A DNA stretch of 64,000 nucleotides from Pseudomonas sp. MM211 (lineage in GTDB: Bacteria > Pseudomonadota > Gammaproteobacteria > Pseudomonadales > Pseudomonadaceae), in contig NZ_CP081942.1 of NCBI RefSeq assembly GCF_020386635.1, positions 3,224,001 to 3,288,000 of the forward strand. The letters run 5' to 3'. Numbering within the stretch: position 1 is the first letter of the stretch; every line of letters starts with the position of its first letter. The notes beneath the pieces were generated by a model. That model was not told where the DNA came from. It worked only from the letters and a program-made list of their open reading frames with translations, and searched no databases. The position numbers and the translations under genes were made by a program. Below, piece by piece: positions 8,271 through 48,417 of this stretch.

Positions 8271-9464
8271 TCAGAGCCTCATCGGCCCGCGCATGCGCAG
8301 GGTGGTGCTGGAGCCGGCTGCGGCGTCGCCGAGTACCACCTTGTCGCCGGTCTCCAGGCCTTCCAGCACCTGAGCGTTGATCGAGTCTTCCAGGCCGGTG
8401 CGGATCTGTCGTGCCTCGACCTTTCCATCCTTGCCCATCACCTGCACGGTGTAGCTGCCGTCACGGTTGGCGCTGCCCAGCGCCGACACTGGGACGCTCG
8501 CGGCATCCTTGACGCTGTCGAGGACGATGTTCACTTCGGTGGTCATGGAAATGCGCAGCTTGCCGTCCGGGTTTGGCACGTCGAACACGGCGATGTAATA
8601 CACCGCCGTGTCGGTGGAGGTGGTCGACGATGAACTGCTCGACGTGCTGTCACTGGTGTTGATCGAGTCCGGTGCCGGCTCGATCATGCGCAGCGTGGCT
8701 TCATAGCGTTTGCCGGGCTCGCCTAGGATGGTGAAGTACACCGGCAGGCCGGGCTGCAGGTTGACCACATCGGCCTCGGAAATCTCGGCGCGCACGGTCA
8801 TCTTGTCGAGCTGGGCGACCTTGACGATAGTCGGCGCCGACTGCGCCGAGTTGACCGTCTGGCCTTCCTTGACCACCACGCCGACCACGGTGCCGTCGAT
8901 GGGCGCGACGATCTTGGTGTAGCCGAGATCGACTTCGGCGGTGGACACCTGGATCTGTGCCTGCTGAATCTGCGCGTCCAGCGCGGCGACCTGGGCCTTG
9001 GCGGTGTTCAGGTCGGCCTCGGCAGTCTCGTAGCTTTCCCGCGAGCTGGCGTTCTGGGCGAGCATGGATTTCTGCCGATTGAAGGCGAGCTGCGCCTTTT
9101 TCAAGTTCGCGGCCTGCACTGCACGCTGGGCCTTGACGTTGGCCAATGCAGCCTTGGCATTGGCCAGGTCGTTCTGCTGGGTCAGGGAGTCGATCTCGGC
9201 GATGGGGTCGCCCTGTTTGACCAGGTCACCGAAGTCGACGTGTAGCTTGGTGACTTGGCCGGACACCTGGGCGCCGACACTGACCTGCTTGAAGGCTTCC
9301 AGTGTGCCGGTGGCAATGACCGTTTGCTCGATGCTGGCCTGGCGAACCTCGGCAGTCAGCAGGCCGTTGCCTGGCGCTGGCTGCAGCCAACGGTTGAGCG
9401 CATAGCCGCCCAATGCCAGGGCAGCGATGGCGGGAATCAGGAGCAGCAGCTTGGTTCTTGGCAT
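8271..9464 (-). CDS. macA: MacA-type periplasmic adaptor (membrane fusion protein)
   Basis: This 397-residue adaptor joins MacB to the outer-membrane channel. It has one N-terminal membrane anchor ([18 protein letters not shown]), lipoyl/barrel-sandwich halves around residues 50-75 and 190-215 ([16 protein letters not shown]), and a long alpha-hairpin of coiled coil between (roughly residues 85-185). A Ser/Thr-rich loop ([16 protein letters not shown]) near residue 280 is unusual and probably disordered. ATG at 9464 is preferred over a TTG five codons upstream. It is the first gene of the macAB operon, with an unusual repeat array over its promoter. Confidence 0.92.
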
Positions 9465-9496
9465 GGTGATGGCACACAACGAATTTGGATGTAGCC

Positions 9497-9561
9497 ACTA
9501 TAGGGAGGCGCTCATCTGCGTTGGGTAAGAGCGAGGTAAGGTTCTGTCAGGAATAGGTAAA
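9497..9561 (-). promoter_or_regulatory. Candidate macAB promoter with 11-bp-period direct repeats
   Basis: On the minus strand TATAGT (9497-9502) is a good -10, but the expected -35 is poor. Overlapping and upstream of that -35, GGTAAG occurs on the plus strand at 9524 and 9535 (exactly 11 bp apart), with GTCAGG at 9546 and GGTAAA at 9556. On the minus strand this reads CTTACC-N5-CTTACC. A 6-N5-6 direct repeat beside a weak -35 is the layout used by OmpR-family response regulators such as PmrA or PhoP. The regulator is inferred, not identified. Confidence 0.5.
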
Positions 9562-9838
9562 GTTCGTGGTCGGACGACCGGCAGCGGTTATTTGTGACCC
9601 AGCAAATGCGGCAAGGCTCTCAAGTCACCGACGCGCTTGCCGACATTATGGAAAGCCCGATCGGGTAAGCAGGAAACAGGCGTGGCAGGGAGCCGAGTGC
9701 GACGACTCCAATGTGCCATTTCGCTCGTGCTTAGTTGTTTAAAACCAAACGCCTACCTGTGCTGGCGCGGCAGCATTGCTGTGCTAGACATAGTGGAGTG
9801 GCAGGGATGTACCCTTCACGAACTAAAGGATTGCAACC
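9562..9838. other. Intergenic region between macA and aer
   Basis: These bases lie between the divergent macA and Aer-like receptor genes. I found no convincing sigma-54, sigma-28 or Anr site, no good hairpin and no supported small gene. A weak -10 such as TAGACA near 9785 is possible for the receptor gene but unsupported by a -35. Confidence 0.4.
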
Positions 9839-11404
9839 ATGCGTCAGAATCTGCCGGTGACTCAGCGGGAAAGGACTTTTCCTGGTCATGAGCGGTTGAT
9901 CTCCACCACCGATCTGAACAGCAAGATCACCTACTGCAACGACGCATTCGTTGCCATCAGCGGCTTCACTCGTGAGGAACTGATCGGCCAGCCCCACAAC
10001 CTGGTACGCCACCCGGATATGCCGCCAGCGGTATTCGGCCACATGTGGGACACCATCAAGCAGGGCAAACCCTGGATGGGGATCGTCAAGAATCGCTCGA
10101 AGAACGGCGATTACTACTGGGTCAGTGCCTACGTCACGCCGATCTACCAGAACGGCCAGGTGTCGGGTTACGAATCGGTGCGCTCGCTGCCGAGCGAAGA
10201 CCAGAAGCGCCGCGCCGAGGCGCTGTACGCCAGGTTGCGGGCCGGAAAATCCCCGGTACCGAAGATCGAGTACCTGACCTACGACCTGATTCGTTCCTGG
10301 CCGCTGATTCTTGCCACGCTGGTGATCCTCGCTGCTCACTCGGTGCTTGCTGGGTTGTGGCTGGCGGCGCTTATCGTGGTGGTGATGACTGCTCTGGGCT
10401 CCTATCAGCTGTACGCCAAGCGCTCTCTGATTCGCCGTACCCTGGCCGACCATCCCAAGGCCTTCACCAGTAGCCTGGTGGCGCTCACCTACAGCGAGAG
10501 CCGCGGCGCCCAGGCGTTGCTCGACATGGCCATGATCAGCGAGGAGGCCCGCCTGCAGACGGCGCTGACGCGCCTGGAAGATGCGGGTGTGAACGTCAAG
10601 AAACAGGCCGCTCAGTCAGCCGGCTTTTCCCGGGCCGGCGCCGAGATGCTCGATCAGCAGCGCAGCGAAACCGATCAGTCAGCCACGGCCATCAACCAGA
10701 TGGCGGCAACCATTCAGGAAGTCACCCAGAACGTGCAGAGCACCAGCCATGCCGCCGAAGAGGCGGATCGCCTGGCCAAGGAAGGTCGGCAACTGGCCGG
10801 TGGCAGCCTGGAATCCATGCAGCACATGGCCAAGGCCGTCGCGGATATCGGCCAGGCGGTGAACGACCTGGCCAACTCGACCCAGTCCATCGGCAGCGTT
10901 GCTGACGTGATCACCTCGATTGCCGAGCAGACCAACCTGCTGGCGCTCAACGCCGCGATCGAGGCGGCGCGCGCGGGCGAGCAGGGGCGTGGTTTTGCCG
11001 TGGTTGCCGATGAGGTGCGTTCGCTGGCTTCGCGCACCCGCGAGTCGACCCAGCAGATTCACCAGATCATTGCGTCCTTGCGTGCCGGCGCCGAGCGTGC
11101 GGTGGTCACCGCCGGGCGGGGTGAGGAGATATCTCGGGAGAGCGTACAAAGCGTCGAGGCGGTGCGTATCGCGCTGGATGGCATCAGCGAATCGGTGAGC
11201 CGCATCACCGGCATGAGCCAGCAGATTGCCGCTGCTTCCGAAGAACAGGGCCAGGTGGCCGATGACATCAGTCGGCAAATCACCCGCATCGCCCAGCTTT
11301 CCGAGCAGGGCGCCGAGCAGGCTCACCAGGGGGCCGCCATCGGCAAGGAGCTGGAGACCATGGCCGACTACCTACACAGCCTGGCCGAGCGCTTCAACCG
11401 CTAG
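9839..11404 (+). CDS. aer: PAS-domain chemoreceptor (Aer-like, aerotaxis)
   Basis: This 521-residue methyl-accepting chemotaxis protein has no periplasmic domain. A PAS domain covers about residues 10-125 ([20 protein letters not shown], then NLVRHPDMP and KNGDYYW), matching Aer, which senses redox or oxygen through FAD. A hydrophobic hairpin (about 155-190) anchors it. The signalling hairpin tip includes [20 protein letters not shown] and [15 protein letters not shown]. It should signal through CheW/CheA, both encoded later in the window. Its stop codon lies inside a large inverted repeat shared with the convergent gene. Confidence 0.92.
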
Positions 11405-11454
11405 GGTCTGTTGCCGTTTCAACGCGAGCCGCGTGAAACGGCAACAGACCCTAG
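11401..11454. terminator. Perfect 21-bp inverted repeat enclosing both stop codons
   Basis: Left arm 11401-11421 (CTAGGGTCTGTTGCCGTTTC plus A) and right arm 11434-11454 are exact reverse complements, with a 12-base GC-rich centre that can add a CGCG/CGCG pair. The TAG of aer (11402-11404) sits in the left arm and the TAG of the opposite-strand DUF1003 gene (11451-11453) in the right arm. There is no T-run. It probably acts as a two-way transcript end, or is an inserted palindromic repeat. Confidence 0.75.
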
Positions 11455-11990
11455 GCCAATGGGCGGCTATCTTTGTTGATCAGTCGCTCATGCAGTTCTA
11501 CCGTCAAGCCTTCGATTCGCTCGCTCAGTTGCTTGGTGATGGACGTCAGTTCGGTATTCTGACGAATCAGATCCAGCAACTGGGCACTCTGTTGTGCGGC
11601 ACTCTCCAGGCGTTTCTCGTTGGCGACTGCCAGTTCTTCACGGTGTTTCGCATCGGCCTCCGAATGCGCTTTGTCGCGGGCTGCCTGGCGAGTTTGAGCC
11701 AGCAGGATCAGGGGCGCCGCATAGGCCGCCTGCAGGCTGAACGCGAGGTTGAGCAAAATGAACGGATAGACATCGAAACTGCTCAGGCCACTTGCGTTCA
11801 CGACGATCCAGGCTGCCACTATCAGCGTTTGTACGCCGAGAAACATCGGAGTGCCGAAGAATCGTGCGAAGGCTTCAGCCTTGAGTGCGAAGGTGTCGTT
11901 ACCGAAAGGGTTCGCCAAGTGGGCATGGCTGCGATGGAAGCGTAGAGGGTCGACGGGGGAGATTGAGGGTTTGTCGGCAGGCGTGTTCAT
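11451..11990 (-). CDS. DUF1003 membrane protein
   Basis: This 179-residue protein has two adjacent transmembrane helices (about residues 50-72 and 78-100: MFLGVQTLIVAAWIVVNASG, then FILLNLAFSLQAAYAAPLIL). A long soluble coiled-coil tail follows, rich in Gln, Glu and Ala. This is the DUF1003 pattern, a family of unknown function. The ATG at 11990 has GGAG 7 bases upstream, better than the ATG four codons earlier. It ends inside the shared inverted repeat, convergent with aer. No role is assigned. Confidence 0.8.
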   Translation of the reverse strand: MNTPADKPSISPVDPLRFHRSHAHLANPFGNDTFALKAEAFARFFGTPMFLGVQTLIVAAWIVVNASGLSSFDVYPFILLNLAFSLQAAYAAPLILLAQTRQAARDKAHSEADAKHREELAVANEKRLESAAQQSAQLLDLIRQNTELTSITKQLSERIEGLTVELHERLINKDSRPLA

Positions 11991-12134
11991 TGTCGGCTCC
12001 ATGGGGGCAGGGCGCGCAGCGGTGAGTGGGAAGGCACGGCGCTTGGTCGGAGCACCATGACGGCTATCTGGCTGCCACTGCAGCTTACGCGGCAGTTGGC
12101 TTGTGGCACACTGCCTCGCTGAGGAGAGCCCCCG

Positions 12135-12737
12135 ATGTCACGCCCCCGCTGTTCCCGCTGCAAACGCCCCGAAAGCCACTGCTTGTGCGCGCTGATCCCA
12201 GATTTGCCCAGCCGTACCGAAATTCTTGTGCTGCAGCATCCTGATGAAGTCGATCACGCTTTGAATACCGCCAATCTGGCCGTGCTCGGTCTGCGCAACG
12301 CGACGTTGCGGATCGGTGAGGTATTCGAAGACTTGCCGCTTTGGTTGGCGCAACCTAGCTATCGCTCCTGCCTGCTGTTTCCCGGGAACGACGCCCAGCC
12401 GCTGGACAGCCTTGTCGGTGGGGCGGATGACAGACCGTTGCGGCTGGTGGTGCCTGATGGCACCTGGCGCAAGGCGCGCAAGCTGCTGCACCTCAATCCT
12501 GCGTTGGCAGCGCTGCCGCGGGTGACCCTGTCGAATGTGCCGCCCTCACGCTATCGACTGCGCAAGGCGCCGATGGAAGGATCGCTGTCGACTCTCGAGG
12601 CCATCGTCGCGGCGCTGAACGTGCTGGAGGCGCCGGCTGATTATCAGGCCCTGCTGAAACCCTTCGATGCCCTTATCGAAGGGCAGATCGCGGCGATGGG
12701 CGAAGAAACGTTCAGGCGCAATCACCTGCATTCATAA
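12135..12737 (+). CDS. DTW-domain tRNA-uridine aminocarboxypropyltransferase
   Basis: The 200-residue protein starts with a Cys-rich knuckle (RCSRCKRPESHCLC) and has the DTW-family core: LVLQHPDEVDHALNTA, the acceptor region LVVPDGTWRKARKL, and PSRYRLRKAP. DTW proteins such as E. coli TapT add the aminocarboxypropyl group of S-adenosylmethionine to a uridine in the tRNA variable loop (acp3U47). GAGGAG lies just upstream of the ATG. It is a single gene followed by a REP pair. The family is clear; the exact tRNA position is inferred. Confidence 0.85.
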   Translation: MSRPRCSRCKRPESHCLCALIPDLPSRTEILVLQHPDEVDHALNTANLAVLGLRNATLRIGEVFEDLPLWLAQPSYRSCLLFPGNDAQPLDSLVGGADDRPLRLVVPDGTWRKARKLLHLNPALAALPRVTLSNVPPSRYRLRKAPMEGSLSTLEAIVAALNVLEAPADYQALLKPFDALIEGQIAAMGEETFRRNHLHS

Positions 12738-12743
12738 GTGTTT

Positions 12744-12802
12744 GTGGGCTGAAGCCCACCCTACGGGGTGCGCGCGTGTCGTAGGCTGGGCTCCAGCCCA
12801 CC
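12744..12802. repeat. REP-like inverted doublet (family A)
   Basis: The unit GTGGGCTGAAGCCCACC plus CTAC (12744-12764) and a slightly changed reverse complement (12781-12802, GTAGGCTGGGCTCCAGCCCACC in two parts) flank a GC-rich spacer. It is the same family as 1136-1191 and 58946-58967. Confidence 0.75.
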
Positions 12803-12818
12803 AATAGCGATGCCCGCT

Positions 12819-13667
12819 TCAGGCGAAGGTGCCATCTCGGAAGTCGCGCATCGCCTGTTCGATTTCTTCCCGGCTGTTCATCACGAAAGGCCCGTATTGC
12901 ACGATGGGCTCGTTCAGCGGCTTGCCAGCGAGCAGTAGCACTCGAGTCCCCGTGCTGCTGCTCAGATGCAATTCACCCTGATCATCCAGGCGAACCAGCC
13001 TGCCGGCTCTCACTTCGTGGCTGCGTTGCACATGAGCGTCGCCCTGGTACACGTAAAGCAGAGCGCGGTGGCCGTCGGGCAGGGCGGGGCTCAAGGTGCT
13101 GCCTGCCGGAATATGCAGATCGAGGAGATAGGGATCGGTGCTGGGGCGCTGCACCGCGCCTGCCTGAACGATAGCGCCCTCGGCGAAGGTGCCGGCAATC
13201 ACCACCACTTCGGCGCCACTGGCGGTACGCACGCGGGGAATCTGCGCGGCCGGAATGTCGCGGTAGTCCGGGTCGGCCATCTTGCTGTCGGCGGGCAGGT
13301 TGAGCCACAACTGGAAGCCGCGCATGGCTCCCTGTTCCTGCTCCGGCATTTCGCTGTGGATGATGCCGCGTGCCGCGGTCATCCACTGCACGTCACCGCC
13401 CTGCAGCAGCCCGACATTGCCCAGGTGATCCTCGTGGCGCATGCGCCCTTCGAGCATATAGGTAATGGTTTCGAAGCCACGGTGGGGGTGCGGCGGGAAG
13501 CCGGCGATATAGTCGTCGGCGTTCTCGGTGCTGAACTCGTCGAGCATCAGGAAGGGGTCGAAGCGCTCGATGCCGCCACCGCCGATCACTCGATTGAGGC
13601 GCACGCCGGCACCGTCGGAAGCGGGCTGGCCCGGCTGAATGGCGAGTACATTGCGTAGTTGGGTCAT
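12819..13667 (-). CDS. Pirin-family cupin protein
   Basis: This 282-residue bicupin has the pirin metal site in the N-terminal cupin: FPPHPHRGFETITYMLEG followed by the HSE ligands in GIIHSEMPEQ. The C-terminal cupin is degenerate. Bacterial pirins include quercetin dioxygenases and modulators of central metabolism; the substrate here is not determined. ATG at 13667 with AGGAG 9 bases upstream fixes the start. It is transcribed alone, away from the downstream-lying mlaA. Confidence 0.88.
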   Translation of the reverse strand: MTQLRNVLAIQPGQPASDGAGVRLNRVIGGGGIERFDPFLMLDEFSTENADDYIAGFPPHPHRGFETITYMLEGRMRHEDHLGNVGLLQGGDVQWMTAARGIIHSEMPEQEQGAMRGFQLWLNLPADSKMADPDYRDIPAAQIPRVRTASGAEVVVIAGTFAEGAIVQAGAVQRPSTDPYLLDLHIPAGSTLSPALPDGHRALLYVYQGDAHVQRSHEVRAGRLVRLDDQGELHLSSSTGTRVLLLAGKPLNEPIVQYGPFVMNSREEIEQAMRDFRDGTFA

Positions 13668-19242: not shown

Positions 19243-19258
19243 GAGGTAGATCCCGATC

Positions 19259-21064
19259 ATGGCCGACGCACTTGCCACCACCGTACCCGCCACCACTGCT
19301 GGCAGCGAGCCGAAAAAGCCGTTGCTGGGACTGACGTTCCTGGAAAACCTTTCCGATATGCCGTTGCTGCGTCAGGCTGGCTTGCTGGTTGGCCTGGCCG
19401 CCAGTGTGGCGATTGGTTTCGCCGTGGTTCTGTGGTCACAGCAGCCGGAGTACAAGCCGTTGTACGGCAGCCTCGACGGTATGGACGCCCGCGGGGTGAT
19501 GGAAACCCTGACTACGGCCAATATCGATTACACCATCGAGCCGAACTCCGGCGCACTGCTGGTCAAGTCAGAAGACCTGGCCCGTGCGCGCATTCGCCTG
19601 GCTTCCGCTGGCGTGGCGCCCACCGATACCAGTATCGGTTTCGAGATTCTCGACAAGGAGCAGGGCCTGGGTACCAGCCAGTTCATGGAAGCCACCCGCT
19701 ACCGTCGCGGCCTGGAAGGCGAGCTGGCACGCACCGTTTCCAGCCTCAACAACGTCAAGGCAGCTCGCGTGCACCTGGCAATCCCGAAGAGCTCGGTATT
19801 CGTTCGTGACGAGCGCAAGCCAAGCGCGTCGGTACTGGTCGAGCTGTATTCGGGCCGTAATCTGGAGCCAAGCCAGGTGATGGCGATCGTCAATCTGGTC
19901 GCCAGCAGCGTCCCGGAAATGGACAAGGGCCAGGTCACCGTCGTCGATCAGAAGGGCAACCTGCTGTCCGATCAGCAGGAAATGTCCGAACTGAGCATGG
20001 CCGGCAAGCAGTTCGATTACAGCCGCCGCATGGAGAGCCTGTTCACCCAGCGCGTGCACAACATTCTGCAGCCTGTGCTCGGCATGGGTCGCTACAAGGC
20101 CGAAGTCTCTGCCGACGTGGATTTCAGCGCCGTCGAGTCGACCTCGGAAACCTTCAATCCGGATCAGCCCGCGCTGCGCAGCGAGCAGCAAGTCAATGAA
20201 CAACGCAGCAGCGGCAGCGGTCCGCAAGGCGTTCCCGGCGCCCTGAGCAATCAGCCGCCAGGCCCTGCCGCTGCGCCGCAGCAGGCTGGCGGTGCCGCCG
20301 CGCCTGGTGGCCCGATTGCCCCCGGCCAGCCTCTGGTCGATGCCAATGGCCAGCAGATCATGGATCCGGCCACTGGCCAGCCGATGCTTGCACCATACCC
20401 GGCCGACAAACGTGATCAGTCGACCCGTAACTTCGAACTCGATCGTTCGGTCAGTTATACCAAGCAGCAACAAGGTCGCTTGCGCCGGCTTTCCGTCGCT
20501 GTCGTGGTGGATGATCAGATGCGTGTCGACCCGGCCACCGGGGAAGCCACTCGGGTGCCGTGGACCAGTGATGACCTGGCTCGGTTTACCCGTCTGGTGC
20601 AGGACTCGGTAGGCTTCGATGCCAGCCGCGGTGATAGCGTCAGCGTGATCAACACTGCTTTTAGCAGTGAGGTCAGCGAAGTGATCGAGATGCCGTGGTA
20701 CCAGAGCGAACTGTTCCTGATGGCCATGGGCGGTCTCAAGTCGCTATTCCCGGCGCTGCTGATCTTCCTGCTGGTGTGGTTCGTGTTGCGCCCTGTGCTC
20801 AACAACATTACCGGTGGCGGCAAGGGCAAAGAGCTGGCCATGGCTGGTGGTGGTCGCGATGGCGACGTCGATCTCGGCGAGATGGGTGGCCTGGACGGTC
20901 AATTGTCGTCCGACCGGGTGAGCCTCGGTGGCCCGCAAAGCATTCTCCTGCCCAGCCCGAGCGAGGGGTATGATGCGCAACTAAACGCGATCAAAAGCCT
21001 GGTCGCCGAAGACCCGGGTCGTGTAGCCCAGGTGGTCAAAGATTGGATCAATGCTGATGAATGA
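19259..21064 (+). CDS. fliF: Flagellar MS-ring protein FliF
   Basis: The 601-residue MS-ring protein has a first membrane helix at about residues 43-62 (LLVGLAASVAIGFAVVLW), ring-building motifs (TRYRRGLEGELARTVSSLN), and a Pro/Gln/Gly-rich low-complexity insert at about residues 315-380. A second helix lies near 490-512, and an acidic C-terminal tail binds FliG. It forms the base on which rotor and export gate assemble. Its last codons overlap fliG. The low-complexity insert corresponds to the variable loop between ring-building motifs. Confidence 0.96.
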   Translation: MADALATTVPATTAGSEPKKPLLGLTFLENLSDMPLLRQAGLLVGLAASVAIGFAVVLWSQQPEYKPLYGSLDGMDARGVMETLTTANIDYTIEPNSGALLVKSEDLARARIRLASAGVAPTDTSIGFEILDKEQGLGTSQFMEATRYRRGLEGELARTVSSLNNVKAARVHLAIPKSSVFVRDERKPSASVLVELYSGRNLEPSQVMAIVNLVASSVPEMDKGQVTVVDQKGNLLSDQQEMSELSMAGKQFDYSRRMESLFTQRVHNILQPVLGMGRYKAEVSADVDFSAVESTSETFNPDQPALRSEQQVNEQRSSGSGPQGVPGALSNQPPGPAAAPQQAGGAAAPGGPIAPGQPLVDANGQQIMDPATGQPMLAPYPADKRDQSTRNFELDRSVSYTKQQQGRLRRLSVAVVVDDQMRVDPATGEATRVPWTSDDLARFTRLVQDSVGFDASRGDSVSVINTAFSSEVSEVIEMPWYQSELFLMAMGGLKSLFPALLIFLLVWFVLRPVLNNITGGGKGKELAMAGGGRDGDVDLGEMGGLDGQLSSDRVSLGGPQSILLPSPSEGYDAQLNAIKSLVAEDPGRVAQVVKDWINADE

Positions 21065-29474: not shown

Positions 29475-30446
29475 ATGGCTGTGCAAGACCTGCTGTCCCA
29501 GGACGAGATCGACGCGCTGTTGCACGGTGTCGACGACGGCTTGGTGGAAACCGAGGAATTCGTCGAGCCGGGTAGCGTCAAGGGATACGACCTGACCAGT
29601 CAGGATCGGATCGTGCGCGGGCGCATGCCGACCCTGGAAATGATCAACGAGCGTTTTGCGCGCTATACCCGCATCAGCATGTTCAACTTGCTACGTCGCT
29701 CCGCTGATGTGGCCGTGGGCGGTGTGCAGGTGATGAAATTCGGCGAGTACGTTCACTCGCTGTACGTGCCGACCAGTCTCAATCTGGTGAAGATGAAGCC
29801 GCTGCGTGGCACTGGTCTGTTCATTCTCGACGCCAAGCTGGTATTCAAACTGGTCGACAACTTCTTTGGTGGTGATGGCCGCCACGCGAAGATCGAAGGC
29901 CGCGAGTTCACCCCTACCGAATTACGTGTAGTACGCATGGTGCTCGATCAGGCATTCATTGATTTGCGTGAAGCCTGGGCCGCGGTGATGGACATCAACT
30001 TCGAATACGTCGGCTCGGAGGTCAATCCGGCGCTGGCCAACATCGTCAGTCCCAGCGAAGTCATCGTGGTATCGACCTTCCACATCGAGCTCGATGGTGG
30101 TGGCGGCGACCTGCACATCACCATGCCTTACTCGATGATCGAGCCGATTCGCGAGATGCTCGATGCCGGCTTCCAGTCCGATGTCGATGACCAGGACGAG
30201 CGCTGGGTCAAGGCCCTGCGTGAAGACATTCTGGAGGTCAGCGTACCGCTCAGCGCCACTGTCGCGCGGCGCCAACTGAAGGTACGCGACATTCTGCACA
30301 TGCAGCCGGGCGACGTGATTCCCGTCGAGCTGCCGGAACACATGATTCTGCGTGCCAATGGCGTGCCGTCCTTCAAGGTCAAGCTTGGCTCGCACAAGGG
30401 CAACCTGTCTCTACAGGTGCTCGATCCGATCGAGCGTCATCGCTAG
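29475..30446 (+). CDS. fliM: Flagellar motor switch protein FliM
   Basis: FliM (323 residues) forms the middle of the C-ring. Its N-terminal peptide LLSQDEIDALLHGV (residues 6-19) is the classic CheY-P binding motif. The GGVQVMKFGEYVHSL region and the CheC-like middle domain follow, and a C-terminal SpoA domain (KVRDILHMQPGDVIPVEL) pairs with FliN. The N-terminal motif closely resembles four repeats inside CheA in this same window. Confidence 0.96.
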   Translation: MAVQDLLSQDEIDALLHGVDDGLVETEEFVEPGSVKGYDLTSQDRIVRGRMPTLEMINERFARYTRISMFNLLRRSADVAVGGVQVMKFGEYVHSLYVPTSLNLVKMKPLRGTGLFILDAKLVFKLVDNFFGGDGRHAKIEGREFTPTELRVVRMVLDQAFIDLREAWAAVMDINFEYVGSEVNPALANIVSPSEVIVVSTFHIELDGGGGDLHITMPYSMIEPIREMLDAGFQSDVDDQDERWVKALREDILEVSVPLSATVARRQLKVRDILHMQPGDVIPVELPEHMILRANGVPSFKVKLGSHKGNLSLQVLDPIERHR

Positions 30447-30509: not shown

Positions 30510-30980
30510 ATGGCAGACGAGAACGAAAACACCACGCCCGAGGAGCAGGCACTGGCCGATGAGTGGGCTGCCGCCCTGTCTGAGTCCGGCGATGCTGATG
30601 GGCAGGACGATATCGATGCCATGCTGGCCGCCAGCGCATCAAGCCAGCCGGCTGCGCCGCGGGCGCCCATGGAAGAGTTCGGCAGCATGCCCAAGGCCAA
30701 CAATCCAGTTAGCCTGGAAGGCCCGAATCTCGATGTGATTCTCGACATTCCTGTCTCCATTTCCATGGAAGTAGGCAATGCCGACATCACCATTCGCAAC
30801 CTGCTACAGCTCAACCAGGGCTCGGTGATCGAACTCGATCGTCTGGCTGGCGAGCCGCTCGATGTGCTGGTCAACGGTACCCTGATCGCCCATGGCGAAG
30901 TGGTGGTGGTCAATGAGAAGTTTGGCATTCGCCTGACCGACGTGATCAGCCCCAGTGAACGCATCAAGAAGCTGCGCTGA
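30510..30980 (+). CDS. fliN: Flagellar motor switch protein FliN
   Basis: FliN (156 residues) has an acidic, Ala/Pro-rich N-terminal half (about 1-75) and a C-terminal SpoA domain (LDVILDIPVSISMEVG to FGIRLTDVISPSERIKKLR) that builds the lower C-ring. The GSVIELDRLAGEPLDVLVNG motif is typical (in family position). The long N-terminal extension is common in Pseudomonas. It is 4 bases ahead of fliO. Confidence 0.96.
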   Translation: MADENENTTPEEQALADEWAAALSESGDADGQDDIDAMLAASASSQPAAPRAPMEEFGSMPKANNPVSLEGPNLDVILDIPVSISMEVGNADITIRNLLQLNQGSVIELDRLAGEPLDVLVNGTLIAHGEVVVVNEKFGIRLTDVISPSERIKKLR

Positions 30981-40445: not shown

Positions 40446-40832
40446 TTGGACAAGAACATGAAAATCCTCATCGTCGATGATTTTTCGACGATGCGCCGGA
40501 TCATCAAGAACCTTTTGCGTGATTTGGGCTTTACCAATACGGCGGAAGCCGACGATGGCGTCACCGCATTGCCGATGCTGCAAAGCGGTAGTTTTGACTT
40601 TCTCGTGACCGACTGGAACATGCCTGGCATGAGTGGGATCGATCTGCTGCGCGCAGTGCGTGCAGACGAACGTTTGAAGCAAATGCCAGTGCTGATGGTT
40701 ACGGCAGAGGCCAAACGTGATCAGATCATCGAGGCCGCCCAGGCCGGTGTGAATGGCTATGTGGTCAAGCCATTCACCGCCCAGGTGCTCAAGGAAAAGA
40801 TCGAAAAAATCTTCGAGCGGGTCAACGGCTGA
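40446..40832 (+). CDS. cheY: Chemotaxis response regulator CheY
   Basis: CheY (128 residues from TTG) is the single-domain receiver that, phosphorylated by CheA, binds FliM and reverses the motor. DD near the N-terminus ([10 protein letters not shown]), the phospho-Asp in [13 protein letters not shown], Thr in VLMVTAEAK and Lys in GYVVKPFT are all present. GGAGG ends 5 bases before TTG 40446; the usual annotated ATG (40458, MKILIVDD) would be 17 bases from it, too far. So a TTG start adding four residues is more likely. Confidence 0.95.
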
Positions 40833-40851: not shown

Positions 40852-41640
40852 ATGGAACACGAAGATTCTCAAGAGGCCGACCTCGAGTCGACTCTGAAAA
40901 GCAATGCCCGCCAACTGGTAAACAGCCTCGAAAAAGGCAACTTTGGCGAAGCGGTACAGCTGATCAATGAACTGAACAAGGCGCGCGACCGTGGTCTTTA
41001 CCACGAAGTCGGCAAGCTCACGCGTGAGCTGCACAACGCCATCGTCAATTTTCAGCTCGACCCCCGAGTGCCACACGCCAATGAAGTCTCACAGATATCC
41101 GACGCTACGGAGCGGCTCAATTACGTTGTGACCATGACCGAGCGAGCGGCCAATCGCACGATGGATCTGGTCGAGCAGAGTGCGCCGTTGGTCAATGACT
41201 TGAGCAGCGAAGCCGATGCCCTGAGCGAGGATTGGGGACGTTTCATGCGCCGCGAAATGGGCGCTGAGGCTTTCCGTGAGTTGGCCAAACGCATCGAGCT
41301 GTTTTTGGCGCGCAGCCAGCGCGACAGCAGCAAACTGTCGGGGCACCTCAATGACATTTTGCTGGCACAGGACTATCAGGATCTGACCGGGCAGGTGATC
41401 AAACGTGTCACGCAACTGGTGACCGAGGTAGAGAGCAACCTGCTGAAATTGATGCTAATGGCCAGTCAGGTCGACCGTTTTGCCGGCATCGATCACGATC
41501 ATGAAGAGTTGCGTGTAGAGCAGAACAAACAAAAAAATACGTCTCATGGTGAAGTTCCACAGATTCATGCCGATAAGCGTGATGATGTCGCTTCTTCCCA
41601 GGACGACGTCGACGATTTGCTGTCCAGCCTGGGATTTTAG
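40852..41640 (+). CDS. cheZ: CheY-P phosphatase CheZ
   Basis: CheZ (262 residues) is a long helical hairpin dimer that dephosphorylates CheY-P. The catalytic Gln is in LLAQDYQDLTGQVIKRV. The extreme C-terminus DDVDDLLSSLGF is the tethered CheY-binding helix, joined by a flexible Asn/Lys/Gln-rich linker. The ATG at 40852 follows GAGG by 5 bases. It lies 19 bases after cheY. Confidence 0.94.
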   Translation: MEHEDSQEADLESTLKSNARQLVNSLEKGNFGEAVQLINELNKARDRGLYHEVGKLTRELHNAIVNFQLDPRVPHANEVSQISDATERLNYVVTMTERAANRTMDLVEQSAPLVNDLSSEADALSEDWGRFMRREMGAEAFRELAKRIELFLARSQRDSSKLSGHLNDILLAQDYQDLTGQVIKRVTQLVTEVESNLLKLMLMASQVDRFAGIDHDHEELRVEQNKQKNTSHGEVPQIHADKRDDVASSQDDVDDLLSSLGF

Positions 41641-41651
41641 GAGCACGTCAT

Positions 41652-43871
41652 ATGAGCTTCGGCGCCGATGAAGAAATCCTCCAGGATTTCCTGGTAGAGG
41701 CCGGCGAGATTCTCGAGCTGTTGTCCGAGCAATTGGTGGAGCTGGAAAGCCGCCCGGACGATATGAATCTGCTCAACGCGATTTTTCGGGGATTTCACAC
41801 GGTAAAAGGCGGGGCAGGCTTTCTGCAGCTCAATGAGCTGGTGGAGTGCTGCCATATTGCCGAGAACGTGTTCGACATCCTGCGCAAGGGTGAGCGTCGC
41901 GTCGACTCCGAGTTGATGGACGTGGTGCTCGAAGCGCTGGATGCGGTCAATGGCATGTTCAGCGAAGTGCGCGAGCGCGTTACGCCAACGCCGGCCTCTC
42001 CCGAGCTACTGGCAGCACTGGCACGACTCGCCGAACCTGCGCCTGCCGCAGCGCTTGCCAATGTTGCAGTCTCTGCACCTGTCCAGCCTGTAGCCCAGAG
42101 CGCTGAGGCATCAGCAGATATTACCGATAGCGAATTCGCACAGCTGCTCGATGCCTTGGACGATGAGCCGCAGCCGTCAGCGAGCGCTTCGGACGACGAA
42201 ATCAGCGATGATGAATTCGAGTCGCTGCTCGATCAGTTGCATGGCAAAGGGCAGTTCGCAGCTGCAGCGACAACCGCTGTCGAAACGGCCGCGCCTGCAC
42301 CAGCCAATGTCTCGAGCAGCGCCAATGGCGACGACATCACCGATGACGAATTCGAAGCTCTACTCGATCAGTTACACGGCAAAGGCCAGTTCGTTGCTGC
42401 TGCCGTAGAGACGCCAGCACCGGCTGCTCCTGCTGCATCCGCCAGTTCTGCAGCGCAGGGCGATGAAATTACCGATGACGAATTCGAAGCGCTGCTCGAT
42501 CAACTGCACGGCAAAGGCAAGTTCGTCGAGCCGACGGCGATCGCCCCTGTTGCTGCCGCTCCGGCCCCTGTGCCGAAGCCAGCAGCCAAAACGGCTGCGC
42601 CGGTAGTTGCCAAGGTCGCGCCCGCACCTGCGCCTATTGCCAAAGCCGAACCAGCCAAAGCCGCTGCCGCGCCGCCTCCGGCTGCTGCTGCGCCTGCGAG
42701 CGAAGCGGAAACCACCGTGCGGGTCGACACCGCGCGTCTGGACGAAATCATGAACATGGTCGGCGAGCTGGTACTGGTGCGTAACCGCCTGGTGCGCCTG
42801 GGACTCAACAGCGGCGACGAGGCCATGTCCAAGGCCGTGTCCAACCTCGACGTGGTCACCGCCGATCTGCAGACGTCGGTCATGAAGACCCGCATGCAGC
42901 CGATCAAGAAGGTCTTCGGGCGCTTCCCACGCTTGGTTCGCGACCTGGCTCGCCAGCTGAAGAAAGAGATCAACCTGGAGCTGGTCGGTGAAGAGACCGA
43001 CCTCGACAAGAACCTCGTCGAAGCCTTGGCCGACCCGCTGGTTCACTTGGTGCGCAACGCGGTCGACCATGGTGTGGAAAGCCCGGAAGAGCGTGAAGCA
43101 GCCGGCAAGTCGCGCACTGGTCGTGTGGTGCTGTCCGCCGAGCAGGAAGGCGACCACATCCTGCTGATGATCACCGATGACGGCAAGGGTATGGATGCCG
43201 ACGTGCTGCGCAGCAAGGCCGTGGAAAAGGGCCTGCTGGACAAGGACGCCGCCGATCGCCTGACCGATCTGGAATGCTACAACCTGATCTTCGCCCCCGG
43301 TTTTTCGACCAAGACCGAGATTTCCGACGTGTCCGGCCGTGGCGTCGGCATGGACGTGGTGAAGACCAAGATTTCCCAGCTCAACGGCACGGTCAACGTG
43401 TTCTCGCAGAAAGGCCAGGGCTCGAAGATCGTCATCAAGGTGCCACTGACCCTGGCGATCATGCCGACGCTGATGGTGATGCTCGGCAACCAGGCGTTTG
43501 CCTTCCCGCTGGTCAACGTCAACGAGATCTTCCACCTCGACCTGTCGCGCACCAACGTGGTCGACGGCCAGGAAGTGGTGATCGTGCGCGACAAGGCATT
43601 GCCGCTGTTCTATCTCAAGCGTTGGCTGGTCAGCAAGGCTGCCCACGAAGAACAAGGCGAAGGCCATGTGGTGATTCTCACCGTCGGCAATCAGCGTATC
43701 GGCTTCGTCGTCGATCAGCTGGTCGGCCAGGAAGAGGTGGTGATCAAGCCGTTGGGCAAGATGCTGCAAGGCACGCCTGGCATGTCGGGTGCGACCATCA
43801 CCGGCGACGGGCGCATCGCCCTGATTCTCGACGTGCCAAGCATGCTCAAACGCTACGCACGGCGTATCTGA
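41652..43871 (+). CDS. cheA: Chemotaxis histidine kinase CheA
   Basis: CheA (739 residues) has a P1 HPt domain (about 1-125, phospho-His49 in GFHTVKGGAGF) and a long Ala/Pro linker. P3 dimerisation (RVDTARLDEIMNMVGELVLV near 355), the P4 kinase (LVHLVRNAVDHGVESPEER, DDGKGMD, GRGVGMDVV) and the P5 CheW-like domain complete it. I see no ordinary P2 (CheY-binding) domain. In its place, residues 156-291 hold four copies of a short motif described separately. It autophosphorylates at chemoreceptor arrays and passes phosphate to CheY and CheB. It starts 11 bases after cheZ. Confidence 0.95.
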   Translation: MSFGADEEILQDFLVEAGEILELLSEQLVELESRPDDMNLLNAIFRGFHTVKGGAGFLQLNELVECCHIAENVFDILRKGERRVDSELMDVVLEALDAVNGMFSEVRERVTPTPASPELLAALARLAEPAPAAALANVAVSAPVQPVAQSAEASADITDSEFAQLLDALDDEPQPSASASDDEISDDEFESLLDQLHGKGQFAAAATTAVETAAPAPANVSSSANGDDITDDEFEALLDQLHGKGQFVAAAVETPAPAAPAASASSAAQGDEITDDEFEALLDQLHGKGKFVEPTAIAPVAAAPAPVPKPAAKTAAPVVAKVAPAPAPIAKAEPAKAAAAPPPAAAAPASEAETTVRVDTARLDEIMNMVGELVLVRNRLVRLGLNSGDEAMSKAVSNLDVVTADLQTSVMKTRMQPIKKVFGRFPRLVRDLARQLKKEINLELVGEETDLDKNLVEALADPLVHLVRNAVDHGVESPEEREAAGKSRTGRVVLSAEQEGDHILLMITDDGKGMDADVLRSKAVEKGLLDKDAADRLTDLECYNLIFAPGFSTKTEISDVSGRGVGMDVVKTKISQLNGTVNVFSQKGQGSKIVIKVPLTLAIMPTLMVMLGNQAFAFPLVNVNEIFHLDLSRTNVVDGQEVVIVRDKALPLFYLKRWLVSKAAHEEQGEGHVVILTVGNQRIGFVVDQLVGQEEVVIKPLGKMLQGTPGMSGATITGDGRIALILDVPSMLKRYARRI
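42117..42524 (+). repeat. Four FliM-like motif repeats within CheA linker
   Basis: CheA residues 156-291 contain ITDSEFAQLLDAL, ISDDEFESLLDQLHGKG, and ITDDEFEALLDQLHGKG twice; the last three start about 45 residues apart. Synonymous codons differ among copies (for example GAGTCGCTGCTC, GAAGCTCTACTC, GAAGCGCTGCTC), so the protein sequence rather than the DNA is kept. The motif matches the FliM N-terminus LSQDEIDALLHG and resembles the CheZ tail DDVDDLLSSLGF, both CheY-binding peptides. Confidence 0.85.
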
Positions 43872-45783: not shown

Positions 45784-46656
45784 ATGGCTCGCCGACGCCG
45801 CCACGAAGAACATGAGAATCACGAGCGCTGGCTGGTGTCCTACGCGGACTTCATCACGCTGCTGTTCGCCTTCTTCGTGGTGATGTACTCGATTTCCTCG
45901 ATCAACGAAGGCAAGTACAAGATCCTTTCGGAAACCCTGACGGGGGTCTTCAATCAGCCGGATCGCTCCATCAAACCCATCCCGGTGGGGGACGAGCGAC
46001 CGCGCACCACCGAGCCGGATCGCTCCATGGTGGATGAGGAAACGGCGCAGCAGATCGCCGCTTCTACACTGGAGAATATCGCTGACAGCATTCGTGATGC
46101 CTTCGGCGGATTGCTGCAGAGCGATCAACTGAAGGTGCGCGGCAATGAGCTGTGGATCGAGATCGAGTTGAGCTCCGGTCTGCTGTTTCCCAGTGGCGAT
46201 GCGCTGCCGAACGATATGGCTTTCGAGATCATCGAGAAGATTGCCAAAATCCTGGCGCCCTATGGCAACCCGGTGCATGTGGAAGGGTTTACCGATAACC
46301 AGCCGATCAGAACTGCGCAGTTCCCGACCAACTGGGAGCTGTCTACCGCGCGCGCTGCCAGTATCGTGCGGATGCTGGCCATGGATGGCGTCGATCCGTC
46401 ACGTATGGCCGCCGTAGGCTATGGCGAGTTCCAGCCAGTAGCCGACAACGCCACGGCAGAGGGCAGGGCGCGCAACCGTCGGGTGGTTCTGGTGGTCTCG
46501 CGCAATCTCGATGTGCGGCGTAGTGTAAGTGGCGTGGGCAGTGCCAATGCCCAGCCTGATACGGCTCTGCAGCGGGCTGGCACGCAACCTGCTTCAGCGC
46601 CTGCAGTACAGGCTCCAGCCAATGGGGCCGTCAATTCCCCGTCGCCTGCCCAATGA
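45784..46656 (+). CDS. motD: Flagellar stator protein MotD
   Basis: MotD (290 residues) is the MotB-like partner. Its single helix (WLVSYADFITLLFAFFVVMY) contains the proton-binding Asp in YADF. A plug region and an OmpA peptidoglycan-binding domain (VEGFTDNQPIRTAQFPTNWE, WELSTARAAS and GRARNRRVVLVV) anchor it to the wall. The Ala/Pro/Gln tail is low in complexity. Confidence 0.94.
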   Translation: MARRRRHEEHENHERWLVSYADFITLLFAFFVVMYSISSINEGKYKILSETLTGVFNQPDRSIKPIPVGDERPRTTEPDRSMVDEETAQQIAASTLENIADSIRDAFGGLLQSDQLKVRGNELWIEIELSSGLLFPSGDALPNDMAFEIIEKIAKILAPYGNPVHVEGFTDNQPIRTAQFPTNWELSTARAASIVRMLAMDGVDPSRMAAVGYGEFQPVADNATAEGRARNRRVVLVVSRNLDVRRSVSGVGSANAQPDTALQRAGTQPASAPAVQAPANGAVNSPSPAQ

Positions 46657-46708
46657 AGTGGGCACTCAGTCTCGGCCAGGCGCAGCCTGTTCCGGGAGGA
46701 TGAAGAGT

Positions 46709-47497
46709 ATGAGAGTTTGGGCTGTAGCCAATCAGAAAGGCGGTGTGGGTAAAACCACCTCGTCCATCGCCCTGGCAGGTTTACTGGCTGATGCTGGCAA
46801 ACGTGTGGTGGTGGTCGATCTCGACCCGCATGGCTCGATGACCAGCTATTTCGGTCACGATCCCGATAGCCTGGAGCACAGCGTCTTCGACCTGTTCCAG
46901 CATCAGGGCAACGTGCCTCAGGAGCTACCGAAGCAGTTATTGCTACCAACCAGTCACGAACGAATTTCCCTGCTGCCATCGAGCACCGTTCTGGCTACGT
47001 TGGAGCGCCAGTCTCCTGGGCAGAGCGGTCTTGGCCTGGTGGTTGCCAAGAGCCTGGCGCAGCTGTGGCAAGACTTCGACCACGCAGTGATCGACAGCCC
47101 ACCGCTGCTCGGCATATTGATGGTCAATGCCCTGGCTGCTTGCCAGCAACTGGTGATCCCGGTGCAGACCGAGTTTCTCGCGGTGAAAGGCCTGGAGCGT
47201 ATGGTTAGCACGTTGGCAATGATCAATCGCTCGCGTAAGCATGCTTTGCCTTACACCATCGTACCGACCCTGTTCGACCGTCGTACCCAGGCGTCGATGT
47301 CCACCTTGCGGTTGCTCAAGAGCAGCTATCCGGAGACGCTCTGGCAAGGCTACATTCCGATTGATACTCGCCTGCGTGATGCCAGCCGGGCAGGGCTGAC
47401 GCCTTCGCAGTTCGATGGTAACAGCCGCGGCACTATTGCCTACCGTGCGCTGCTCAAGCATTTGTTGGCACAACAACCTGCGTCTCAGGTGGCCTGA
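46709..47497 (+). CDS. parC: ParA-family ATPase ParC (chemotaxis array placement)
   Basis: The 262-residue ParA/MinD ATPase has the deviant Walker A NQKGGVGKTTSSIALAG, the VVVVDLDPHGSMTSYFG motif and the switch region AVIDSPPLLGILMVNAL. In Vibrio and Pseudomonas this gene, set between motD and the CheW-like ParP gene, places chemotaxis arrays at the pole. GGAGG precedes the ATG by 9 bases. It is not a plasmid partition gene: there is no ParB or parS nearby. Confidence 0.88.
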   Translation: MRVWAVANQKGGVGKTTSSIALAGLLADAGKRVVVVDLDPHGSMTSYFGHDPDSLEHSVFDLFQHQGNVPQELPKQLLLPTSHERISLLPSSTVLATLERQSPGQSGLGLVVAKSLAQLWQDFDHAVIDSPPLLGILMVNALAACQQLVIPVQTEFLAVKGLERMVSTLAMINRSRKHALPYTIVPTLFDRRTQASMSTLRLLKSSYPETLWQGYIPIDTRLRDASRAGLTPSQFDGNSRGTIAYRALLKHLLAQQPASQVA

Positions 47498-47589
47498 TCC
47501 ATGATGGCTGGTTATTCTGCGAAAACTGGCTCAAGTCTGCCGCCACTGCGGCCGATAGCTCATACAGGTCTCCATTGCGGGTTGCATTC

Positions 47590-48417
47590 ATGAGTCGTTC
47601 AACTGCCACTGCCACACGGCCCCAGCTGGCACTGCAGTCCTACCTCGATGGTTTGCTGCAAGACGCGGCGGTCGAGCTTGAACTGGAGCTTGCCGAGAAC
47701 AGCCTCGATGAGTTCGAGGCTGCTGTGCTTGAGGAGCAGATTCGTGATGCCCAGACGGTGCCGCGCGTCGAAGCAGCGCCCCTGACGTTGGTGCAGCCGG
47801 TTGCCGAGGTAATTATCGAGCCGGTCGTCGAGGCTTTGGCTCCGGTGTTCGTCGAGCCGATTGCCATGCCGACAGTGGTCGAACCTGTGGCAGAGGTGCA
47901 TCGTCCGGCGCCACAGATCGCCTCGGTACTCGCCGACGGTCGTCCCGAGTGGGCTGAAGAGCCGTTCGAATGCCTGCTGTTCGATGTCGCCGGCCTGACG
48001 CTGGCTGTGCCGCTGGTGTGTCTCGGGTCGATTTACCCGCTGGCCGGGCAGGATCTGACACCTTTGTTTGGCCAGCCGGATTGGTTTTTGGGCATACTGC
48101 CATCACAGTCGGGTAACCTGAAAGTGCTCGATACGGCGCGCTGGGTCATGCCAGATCGCTACCGGGAAGATTTTCGTCAGGGGCTGCAGTACGTGATTTC
48201 CGTTCAGGGCTACGAGTGGGGGCTGGCGGTTCATCAGGTCAGCCGCTCGATTCGCCTGAGCCCGGACGAGATCAAGTGGCGTAGCCAGCGTACACAACGG
48301 CCTTGGCTGGCCGGCACGGTGATCGAACACATGTGCGCACTGCTGGATGTGGCCGCATTGGCTGAATTGATTGCCAGCGGCGCAGCCAAGCGCATGACCA
48401 ACGGACAGATACACTGA
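47590..48417 (+). CDS. parP: CheW-domain protein ParP
   Basis: This 275-residue protein has an N-terminal region of about 110 residues rich in Val, Glu, Pro and Ala, followed by a CheW-like domain (FECLLFDVAGLTLAVPLVCL to YEWGLAVHQVSRSIRLSP). ParP couples ParC to CheA and receptors and stabilises polar arrays. The ATG at 47590 is preferred over a TTG five codons earlier. It is 92 bases after parC and 90 before cheW. The partner role is by homology and position. Confidence 0.85.
   Translation: MSRSTATATRPQLALQSYLDGLLQDAAVELELELAENSLDEFEAAVLEEQIRDAQTVPRVEAAPLTLVQPVAEVIIEPVVEALAPVFVEPIAMPTVVEPVAEVHRPAPQIASVLADGRPEWAEEPFECLLFDVAGLTLAVPLVCLGSIYPLAGQDLTPLFGQPDWFLGILPSQSGNLKVLDTARWVMPDRYREDFRQGLQYVISVQGYEWGLAVHQVSRSIRLSPDEIKWRSQRTQRPWLAGTVIEHMCALLDVAALAELIASGAAKRMTNGQIH

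Follow-up and report, generated by a model that had tools for sequence, protein, structure and literature searches.

The stretch of DNA analysed here, called the window, comprises 64,000 nucleotides of the Pseudomonas sp. MM211 genome (contig NZ_CP081942.1, positions 3,224,001 to 3,288,000) and contains a flagellar and chemotaxis region with cheA. The linker between the P1 and P3 domains of this CheA carries four copies of the pattern I[TS]D[SD]EFxxLLDxL within residues 157-291 (Table 1). An earlier reading of the letters alone (the original prediction) had described four FliM-like motifs here, in the place where a P2 domain is expected, and all four were present. Repeats 3 and 4 have an identical core, and 5 of its 13 codons differ between the two copies, all synonymously, as expected under selection on the peptide while the DNA drifts. 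The repeats had been quoted as 13 residues long, which holds for the core, but repeats 2-4 run on past it to HGKG[QK]F; repeat 1 is without that tail. Outside the repeats the linker consists of 42% Ala and 15% Pro. The analysis suggests that CheY may be caught by such repeated peptide hooks in the CheAs of many polar-flagellated bacteria.

A Pfam scan of the window CheA agreed with the claim that no ordinary P2 lies between P1 and P3, as neither of the two P2 models (PF09078, PF07194) was among the families reported up to E 1. The family SHOCT (PF09851) matched at 21.5 bits, below its cut-off of 27. With repeats 3-4 as protein query, a search of the genome itself gave CheA and otherwise two matches with E >1. 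Four CheA-type frames of this genome were examined: the window CheA has the motif, the frame at 797712 has a P2 (E 1e-28) and no motif, and both the frame at 2349224 and a multi-Hpt frame have neither P2 nor motif. The P2-type CheA of the genome (G000:C1:797712, L001) is encoded in a frame of approximately 760 aa.

The motif was counted over gammaproteobacterial CheA linkers; the original prediction had proposed such a count across Pseudomonas. The sample consisted of 377 gammaproteobacterial genomes, in 242 of which a CheA was matched with E of at most 1e-60. The regions examined were 100 among the best matches listed, 60 taken for weaker CheAs and two named plasmid loci; a duplicate (L145), a truncated frame (L104) and a multi-Hpt protein (L140) were left out before counting. 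The strict motif was found in 108 of 160 gammaproteobacterial CheA linkers, the window's included, and was absent by the strict pattern in 52. One copy was present in 13 of the motif linkers, two in 41, three in 45 and four in 9. Over 159 linkers the strict pattern occurred 261 times, compared with a mean of 0.66 and a maximum of 4 in 200 shuffles, and a chance origin of this abundance is excluded. The copies mostly read I-[TS]-[DE]-[DE]-E-F-[DE]-x-L-L-D-x-L, with HG or YG next in 181 of 266, and their median spacing is 41 residues. With a looser pattern, two to five copies each were found in 120 CheAs among the protein-search matches listed (the window's own included). All 80 named loci, ranging from Aeromonas to Vibrio, had two to four copies; as one repeat was among the six probes of that scan, it is uninformative on motif frequency. 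A plasmid of Photobacterium toruni (L015, NZ_CP101697.1) carries cheY-cheZ-cheA-cheW and a further chemotaxis gene at 8839-13411, and its CheA has one clear copy of the motif and a second that looks degenerate by eye.

Motif and P2 were never found together in the 160 linkers: 108 had the motif and no P2, 35 had a P2 and no motif, and 17 had neither. The Pfam P2 models were insensitive in this sample (PF09078 was above cut-off in 4 of 377 genomes and PF07194 in 0 of 377). We used a home-made profile of the domain, some 100 residues long, that occupies the place of P2, built from 20 seeds and rebuilt from its matches, together with a second profile from the P2s recognised by Pfam. The best match of the home-made profile in the 108 motif linkers had E 1.0, and E was <1e-28 in 30 linkers without the motif, many of which had been used to build the profile. 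Most P2 linkers have a W-type domain, which we call P2 on the basis of its position and a profile comparison with the Pfam-type P2 (probability 67%, E 5e-5). A search of the PDB for relatives of the linker or of this W-type domain gave nothing meaningful.

Among the 17 linkers with neither, L114 has by eye a diverged motif, L123 and L124 look P2-like by eye, and three have a fused receiver. A fused receiver was considered as the explanation for the missing P2 and was rejected, as only 3 of the 17 CheAs have one. As in the window's own genome, the split was seen inside G343, where three motifs are present in the CheA encoded next to flhF-fleN-cheYZ and a P2 in another CheA. In a quick tree of P3-P5, all motif CheAs together with L114 fell into a single group of 109 rows (support 89, not starred), and the P2 CheAs lay outside it. 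The exclusion of P2 and motif would fit a single ancient replacement.

The N-terminus of FliM and the C-terminus of CheZ are CheY-binding peptides. A repeat profile of 13 columns was made from 266 copies with the aromatic column removed, and the FliM window was located by a pattern, so that 2 of 86 FliMs without it were left out. Of 84 FliMs, 79 had the best window of the repeat profile at the N-terminus, and of 101 CheZs, 74 had it at the C-terminus, versus 0.25 and 0.4 expected. In the reverse test, 95 of 107 motif CheAs had the best window of the FliM profile on the motif of the linker, and the median best score of this profile was 8.2 in motif CheAs versus 1.0 in P2 CheAs. The likeness to FliM and CheZ that had been noticed earlier is accordingly upheld as a resemblance tied to position, but the repeats are not plain copies of the FliM peptide, as their aromatic residue makes clear (see below).

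The region around cheA includes fliM (29475), fliN (30510), flhF (37331), fleN (38735), fliA (39562), cheY (40458), cheZ (40852), cheB (43908), a MotA-type gene (45041), a MotB-type gene (45784) and cheW (48508). The names flhF, fleN and fliA are presumptive and agree with the gene order, which is shared with an annotated record labelled P. aeruginosa. The window proteins scanned with Pfam were CheA, CheZ, CheY, FliM, FliN, CheB, the MotA- and MotB-type proteins, the ParA-type ATPase, ParP and CheW. The FliM encoded at 29475 has the N-terminus MAVQDLLSQDEIDALLHGV. FliN (30510-30980) has QDDIDAMLA near its N-terminus, another peptide of the FliM kind, and similar ones occur in L016 and L017.

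Table 1. Features of the window that bear on the CheA repeats (positions are those of the window).
Feature	Description	Position	Strand	Basis
CheA	739 aa: P1 (Hpt) 8-99, repeat-bearing linker ~120-350, P3 354-413, P4 461-600, P5 607-734	41652..43871	+	Pfam
CheA repeat 1	residues 157-175, core ITDSEFAQLLDAL, whole ITDSEFAQLLDALDDEPQP; tail divergent, without HGKG	42120..42176	+	
CheA repeat 2	residues 184-202, core ISDDEFESLLDQL, whole ISDDEFESLLDQLHGKGQF	42201..42257	+	
CheA repeat 3	residues 229-247, core ITDDEFEALLDQL, whole ITDDEFEALLDQLHGKGQF	42336..42392	+	
CheA repeat 4	residues 273-291, core ITDDEFEALLDQL, whole ITDDEFEALLDQLHGKGKF; 13-residue core is that of repeat 3	42468..42524	+	
FliM motor peptide	residues 7-16, LSQDEIDALL, similar to the repeats	29493..29522	+	sequence
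CheZ C-terminal peptide	DDVDDLLSSLGF	41602..41637	+	sequence
CheY	proposed ligand; R92, Q94, V103 (E. coli numbering); start is the first ATG	40458..40832	+	
ParC-like ParA ATPase	exact start approximate	46655..47497	+	Pfam AAA_31; 280 aa served as query
ParP-like protein	C-terminal CheW-like (AIF) domain	47575..48417	+	CheW domain 132-264; aligned with 28 relatives

Docking of CheY on the repeats predicts that the face of CheY should change with the type of CheA. We take the motif CheAs to be of the F6 type. In 92 CheYs encoded beside motif CheAs, position 103 was V in 90 and I in 2, position 94 was Q in 89 and N in 3, and position 92 was R in 72 and K in 20. A passage of PMC7184735 describes ten positions that changed when CheY switched from CheA-F6 to CheA-F7, of which three face P2 (R92K, Q94N, V103A) and five face P1, as mapped on the E. 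coli complex. V103 and Q94 were found in 79 of 79 CheYs of the named loci, and among the 11 CheYs available from genomes in which ParC was not found V103 was present in 10 and Q94 in 9. The sole CheY of the same type at a P2 locus (L149) has K92, N94 and A103, the residues also found in enterobacterial-type CheYs taken into the alignment from the PDB. The comparison was cut by 140 bits or by length, which left out 29 of 30 P2-locus CheYs and 2 of 105 motif-locus CheYs. The signature beside motif CheAs could also be shared ancestry. As to location, a passage of PMC12410967 reports a polar position of CheY-eYFP in P. aeruginosa that overlaps with that of CheA-CFP. The CheA of a P. aeruginosa-labelled record has four motif copies.

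From these sequence comparisons we propose CheY docking by the linker repeats in place of P2, with ParP using the same stretch where it is present, as a putative function of the array, and give it a little under an even chance. Each copy would be a capped amphipathic helix that docks CheY on the alpha4-beta5-alpha5 face, which is also used by FliM, CheZ and the P2 of E. coli. Several weak helical sites in a flexible linker would in this way do the job of P2, and the array would concentrate CheY near the phosphohistidine of P1 and at the polar array, giving a polar CheY pool. Phe instead of the Ile/Val of FliM would adjust the affinity or the preference for phosphorylated CheY, and it may favour holding of the substrate over the product. 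Where ParC/ParP are present, ParP-AIF would use one or more copies of the same stretch, and ParP and CheY may share it or compete for it. A wider scenario, which we offer tentatively and find rather doubtful, would place the event at the base of the polar-flagellar CheA group: a folded P2 would have been replaced by tandem CheY-docking peptides, and kinase, motor and phosphatase would compete for one face of CheY through variants of the same peptide, with the Phe of CheA setting the phospho-preference and ParP later having taken copies as its LID. The CheY-docking proposal for the linker repeats was not found among the papers listed in searches of the open-licence part of PubMed Central.

Several observations weigh against docking of CheY. 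Motif and P2 CheAs split largely along two tree groups, so that the exclusion does not amount to 143 independent events and may reflect one or few. In score, the likeness to FliM and CheZ is modest: the top FliM-profile score in a P2 CheA (8.3) equals the median of the motif CheAs (8.2), and among 976 control proteins from the same loci 151 reach the median FliM score and 43 the CheZ median. A helix capping box with a hydrophobic staple has the form I-[ST]-x-x-E-F, and the likeness may therefore be partly a generic helix-capping grammar, as also behind the weak SHOCT match. All 246 CheA copies counted, in linkers selected for at least one F copy, have F at the aromatic position, and at the same position FliM has I in 76 and V in 8 and CheZ has V in 93 and A in 6; outside the 246 copies, L114 has one copy with L at the F position. 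Peptides of the FliM/CheZ type prefer CheY-P, and would thus hold the product and not the substrate. On the CheY side, 29 of the 30 P2-locus CheYs were distant and mostly unparsable, which leaves a thin contrast with a single P2-locus CheY; another type of CheY is served by most of the P2 CheAs sampled. CheZ, or other contacts, could also hold the polar CheY.

A different ligand has been described for this part of CheA in Vibrio. In a passage of PMC7534058, the Vibrio CheA is said to have an additional domain, LID, which lies between P2 and P3 and is found only with ParC/ParP, and according to a passage of PMC5706961 it is bound by ParP-AIF. Among the named loci, the Vibrio, Aliivibrio and Photobacterium ones listed carry three repeats each in the linker, and the Vibrio linkers L226, L228 and L242 are rich in Pro and Ala outside the repeats, with no P2-like stretch by eye, so LID probably overlaps or adjoins the repeats. 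The repeats could then be nothing else than LID: they would dock ParP by its CheW-like domain and so link the CheA arrays to ParC at the pole, with CheY docking not involved. This alternative, which the original prediction had also named, we consider unlikely, if by no great measure. It fits with the position of ParC and ParP just downstream of cheA in the window, with both being above threshold in 78 of the 80 named loci, and with invariant Trp residues in ParP (29 aligned sequences). However, it was found that the motif is kept in 12 genomes of 8 families in which no ParC ortholog was found: G154, G301, G234 and G358 (f45), G007 (f9), G018 (f20), G346 (f154), G314 (f80), G343 (f149), G290 (f151), and G291 and G347 (f142). 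These genomes are 96-100% complete, and their best match to the ParC query had 97-144 bits, the level of general ParA proteins, versus approximately 188 bits or more for orthologs. For ParP the best match in the same genomes was at most 36 bits, the level of an ordinary CheW, versus 82-247 bits for clear ParPs (29-row profile). The ParP evidence is the weaker of the two, as G009, G118, G278, G045 and G219 have ParC yet reached only 33-43 bits for ParP, and a divergent ParP could escape the profile. The 12 genomes are scattered over the tree, some of them near the base of the motif group on long, weakly supported branches. ParP binding also leaves the exclusion with P2 unexplained. ParC/ParP are therefore unlikely to be the only reason for the motif, and its conserved core probably serves something that these genomes retain. 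ParP as sole ligand was judged probably insufficient, although some genomes with ParC score low with the ParP profile; what stands of the LID alternative is that LID and repeats lie in the same linker in Vibrio.

Three further possibilities were weighed. The repeats might do no more than keep P1 and P3 apart as stable capped helices, with their likeness to FliM and CheZ being a convergence on helix-capping grammar. The capping-box pattern, the weak SHOCT match, the Ala/Pro-rich spacers and the control proteins reaching the FliM median would all be in line with a spacer, but when 54 CheAs were aligned all invariant columns within residues 124-356, including the F, L and D positions, fell inside the repeats, and the varying copy number and spacing would be left unexplained; of all the explanations we hold this one to be the most improbable. 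Binding of other parts of the array (CheA P1, P4 or P5, CheW or CheB), by which the repeats would serve in regulation or packing, appears to us distinctly unlikely. ParP-AIF is related to CheA-P5 and CheW in a passage of PMC5706961, and these could therefore also take up a peptide with affinity for AIF; P2 docks CheB as well as CheY according to a passage of PMC11978298, and a copy number of 1 to 4 is as avidity would predict. The same part of PMC5706961 indicates, however, that a ParP residue needed for CheA binding, W305 in V. cholerae, corresponds to S125 in the CheW of T. maritima, so CheW and P5 need not share the site. Finally, FleN/FlhG could be the ligand, coupling array and flagellum at the pole, in line with a passage of PMC12826062 in which FlhG interacts with FliM via the FliM N-terminus. 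All 10 genomes searched for it gave a FleN-family match, including eight motif genomes without a fleN seen in the examined locus. FleN does not need the motif, however, since matches (E 1e-45 or better) were also found in 16 of 31 genomes whose examined CheAs had P2 and no motif, two of the 16 being weak, and the best match in G027 and G124 (169-170 bits) was at the level of a second paralog. We regard this binding as very unlikely.

Some variation of the motif and of its neighbours was observed in individual groups. The family f45 has two or three repeats per CheA, which read LPEGVDPDG-[ED][IM]TD[DE]EF[DE]ALL[NA]QR or nearly so. In its loci L055, L069, L106 and L108 the repeats have the new prefix LPE..DPD and the HG tail is gone, and FliM has EVDALL[KR]GM. 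A coupled change of the FliM and CheA tails was considered and rejected: f45 has [KR]GM and not HGV in FliM and a CheA without HG, but in f101 the CheAs lose HG and the HGV of FliM is unchanged (by eye). In the P. aeruginosa-labelled record L256 (NZ_CP131792.1), a ParA-family gene and a CheW-domain gene lie at 19249-21019 between motD and cheW, which are the places of ParC and ParP. By contrast, related genes are absent from P. aeruginosa according to a passage of PMC12410967; potential orthologs in Pseudomonas are mentioned in a passage of PMC12918733. The ParP-like frame of L228 (Vibrio fortis) contains a long run of consecutive glycines, either real or an assembly artefact.

If CheY does dock on the repeats, one peptide grammar would be common to kinase, motor and phosphatase, and multivalent docking would set the rate of phosphotransfer and the polar CheY pool. 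The array is a concrete candidate for a CheY-recruitment site in Pseudomonas, Vibrio, Shewanella and Aeromonas relatives. If the motif CheAs are of the F6 type, as we assume, the earlier partner of CheY had no P2. This bears on the interpretation, given in a passage of PMC7184735, that the changes of CheY-F6 at the P2 face are an adaptation to CheA-F7. The finding also bears on the description of LID in PMC7534058, in the passage concerned, as an extra domain after P2 that occurs only with ParC/ParP. More than half of the CheAs in a large survey were without P2, according to a passage of PMC10782961.

In comparison with known systems, the repeats resemble the N-terminal peptide of FliM and the C-terminal peptide of CheZ, with which they have a register in common ([LI][ST]x[DE]E-phi-[DE]xLL in FliM) and which were the best windows in most of the proteins scanned. 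In contrast to these peptides, the repeats have F in place of I, V or A in the copies counted, occur in tandem, are internal to the kinase and have an extra D-x-L-H-G tail. SHOCT (PF09851) has a similar helix start, IT-x-EEFE, and many CheA relatives among the matches listed bear a SHOCT label, but the window CheA is under the family cut-off and the likeness is probably a shared capping pattern. The LID of Vibrio is located in the same linker before P3, in which Vibrio has three repeats, and differs in that the repeats are also present where a ParC ortholog was not found. The P2 of CheA (PF09078, PF07194) takes the same position between P1 and P3 and would, by our proposal, have the same task of docking CheY; however, P2 is one folded domain, whereas the repeats are one to four short peptides in Ala/Pro-rich sequence with no P2 match.

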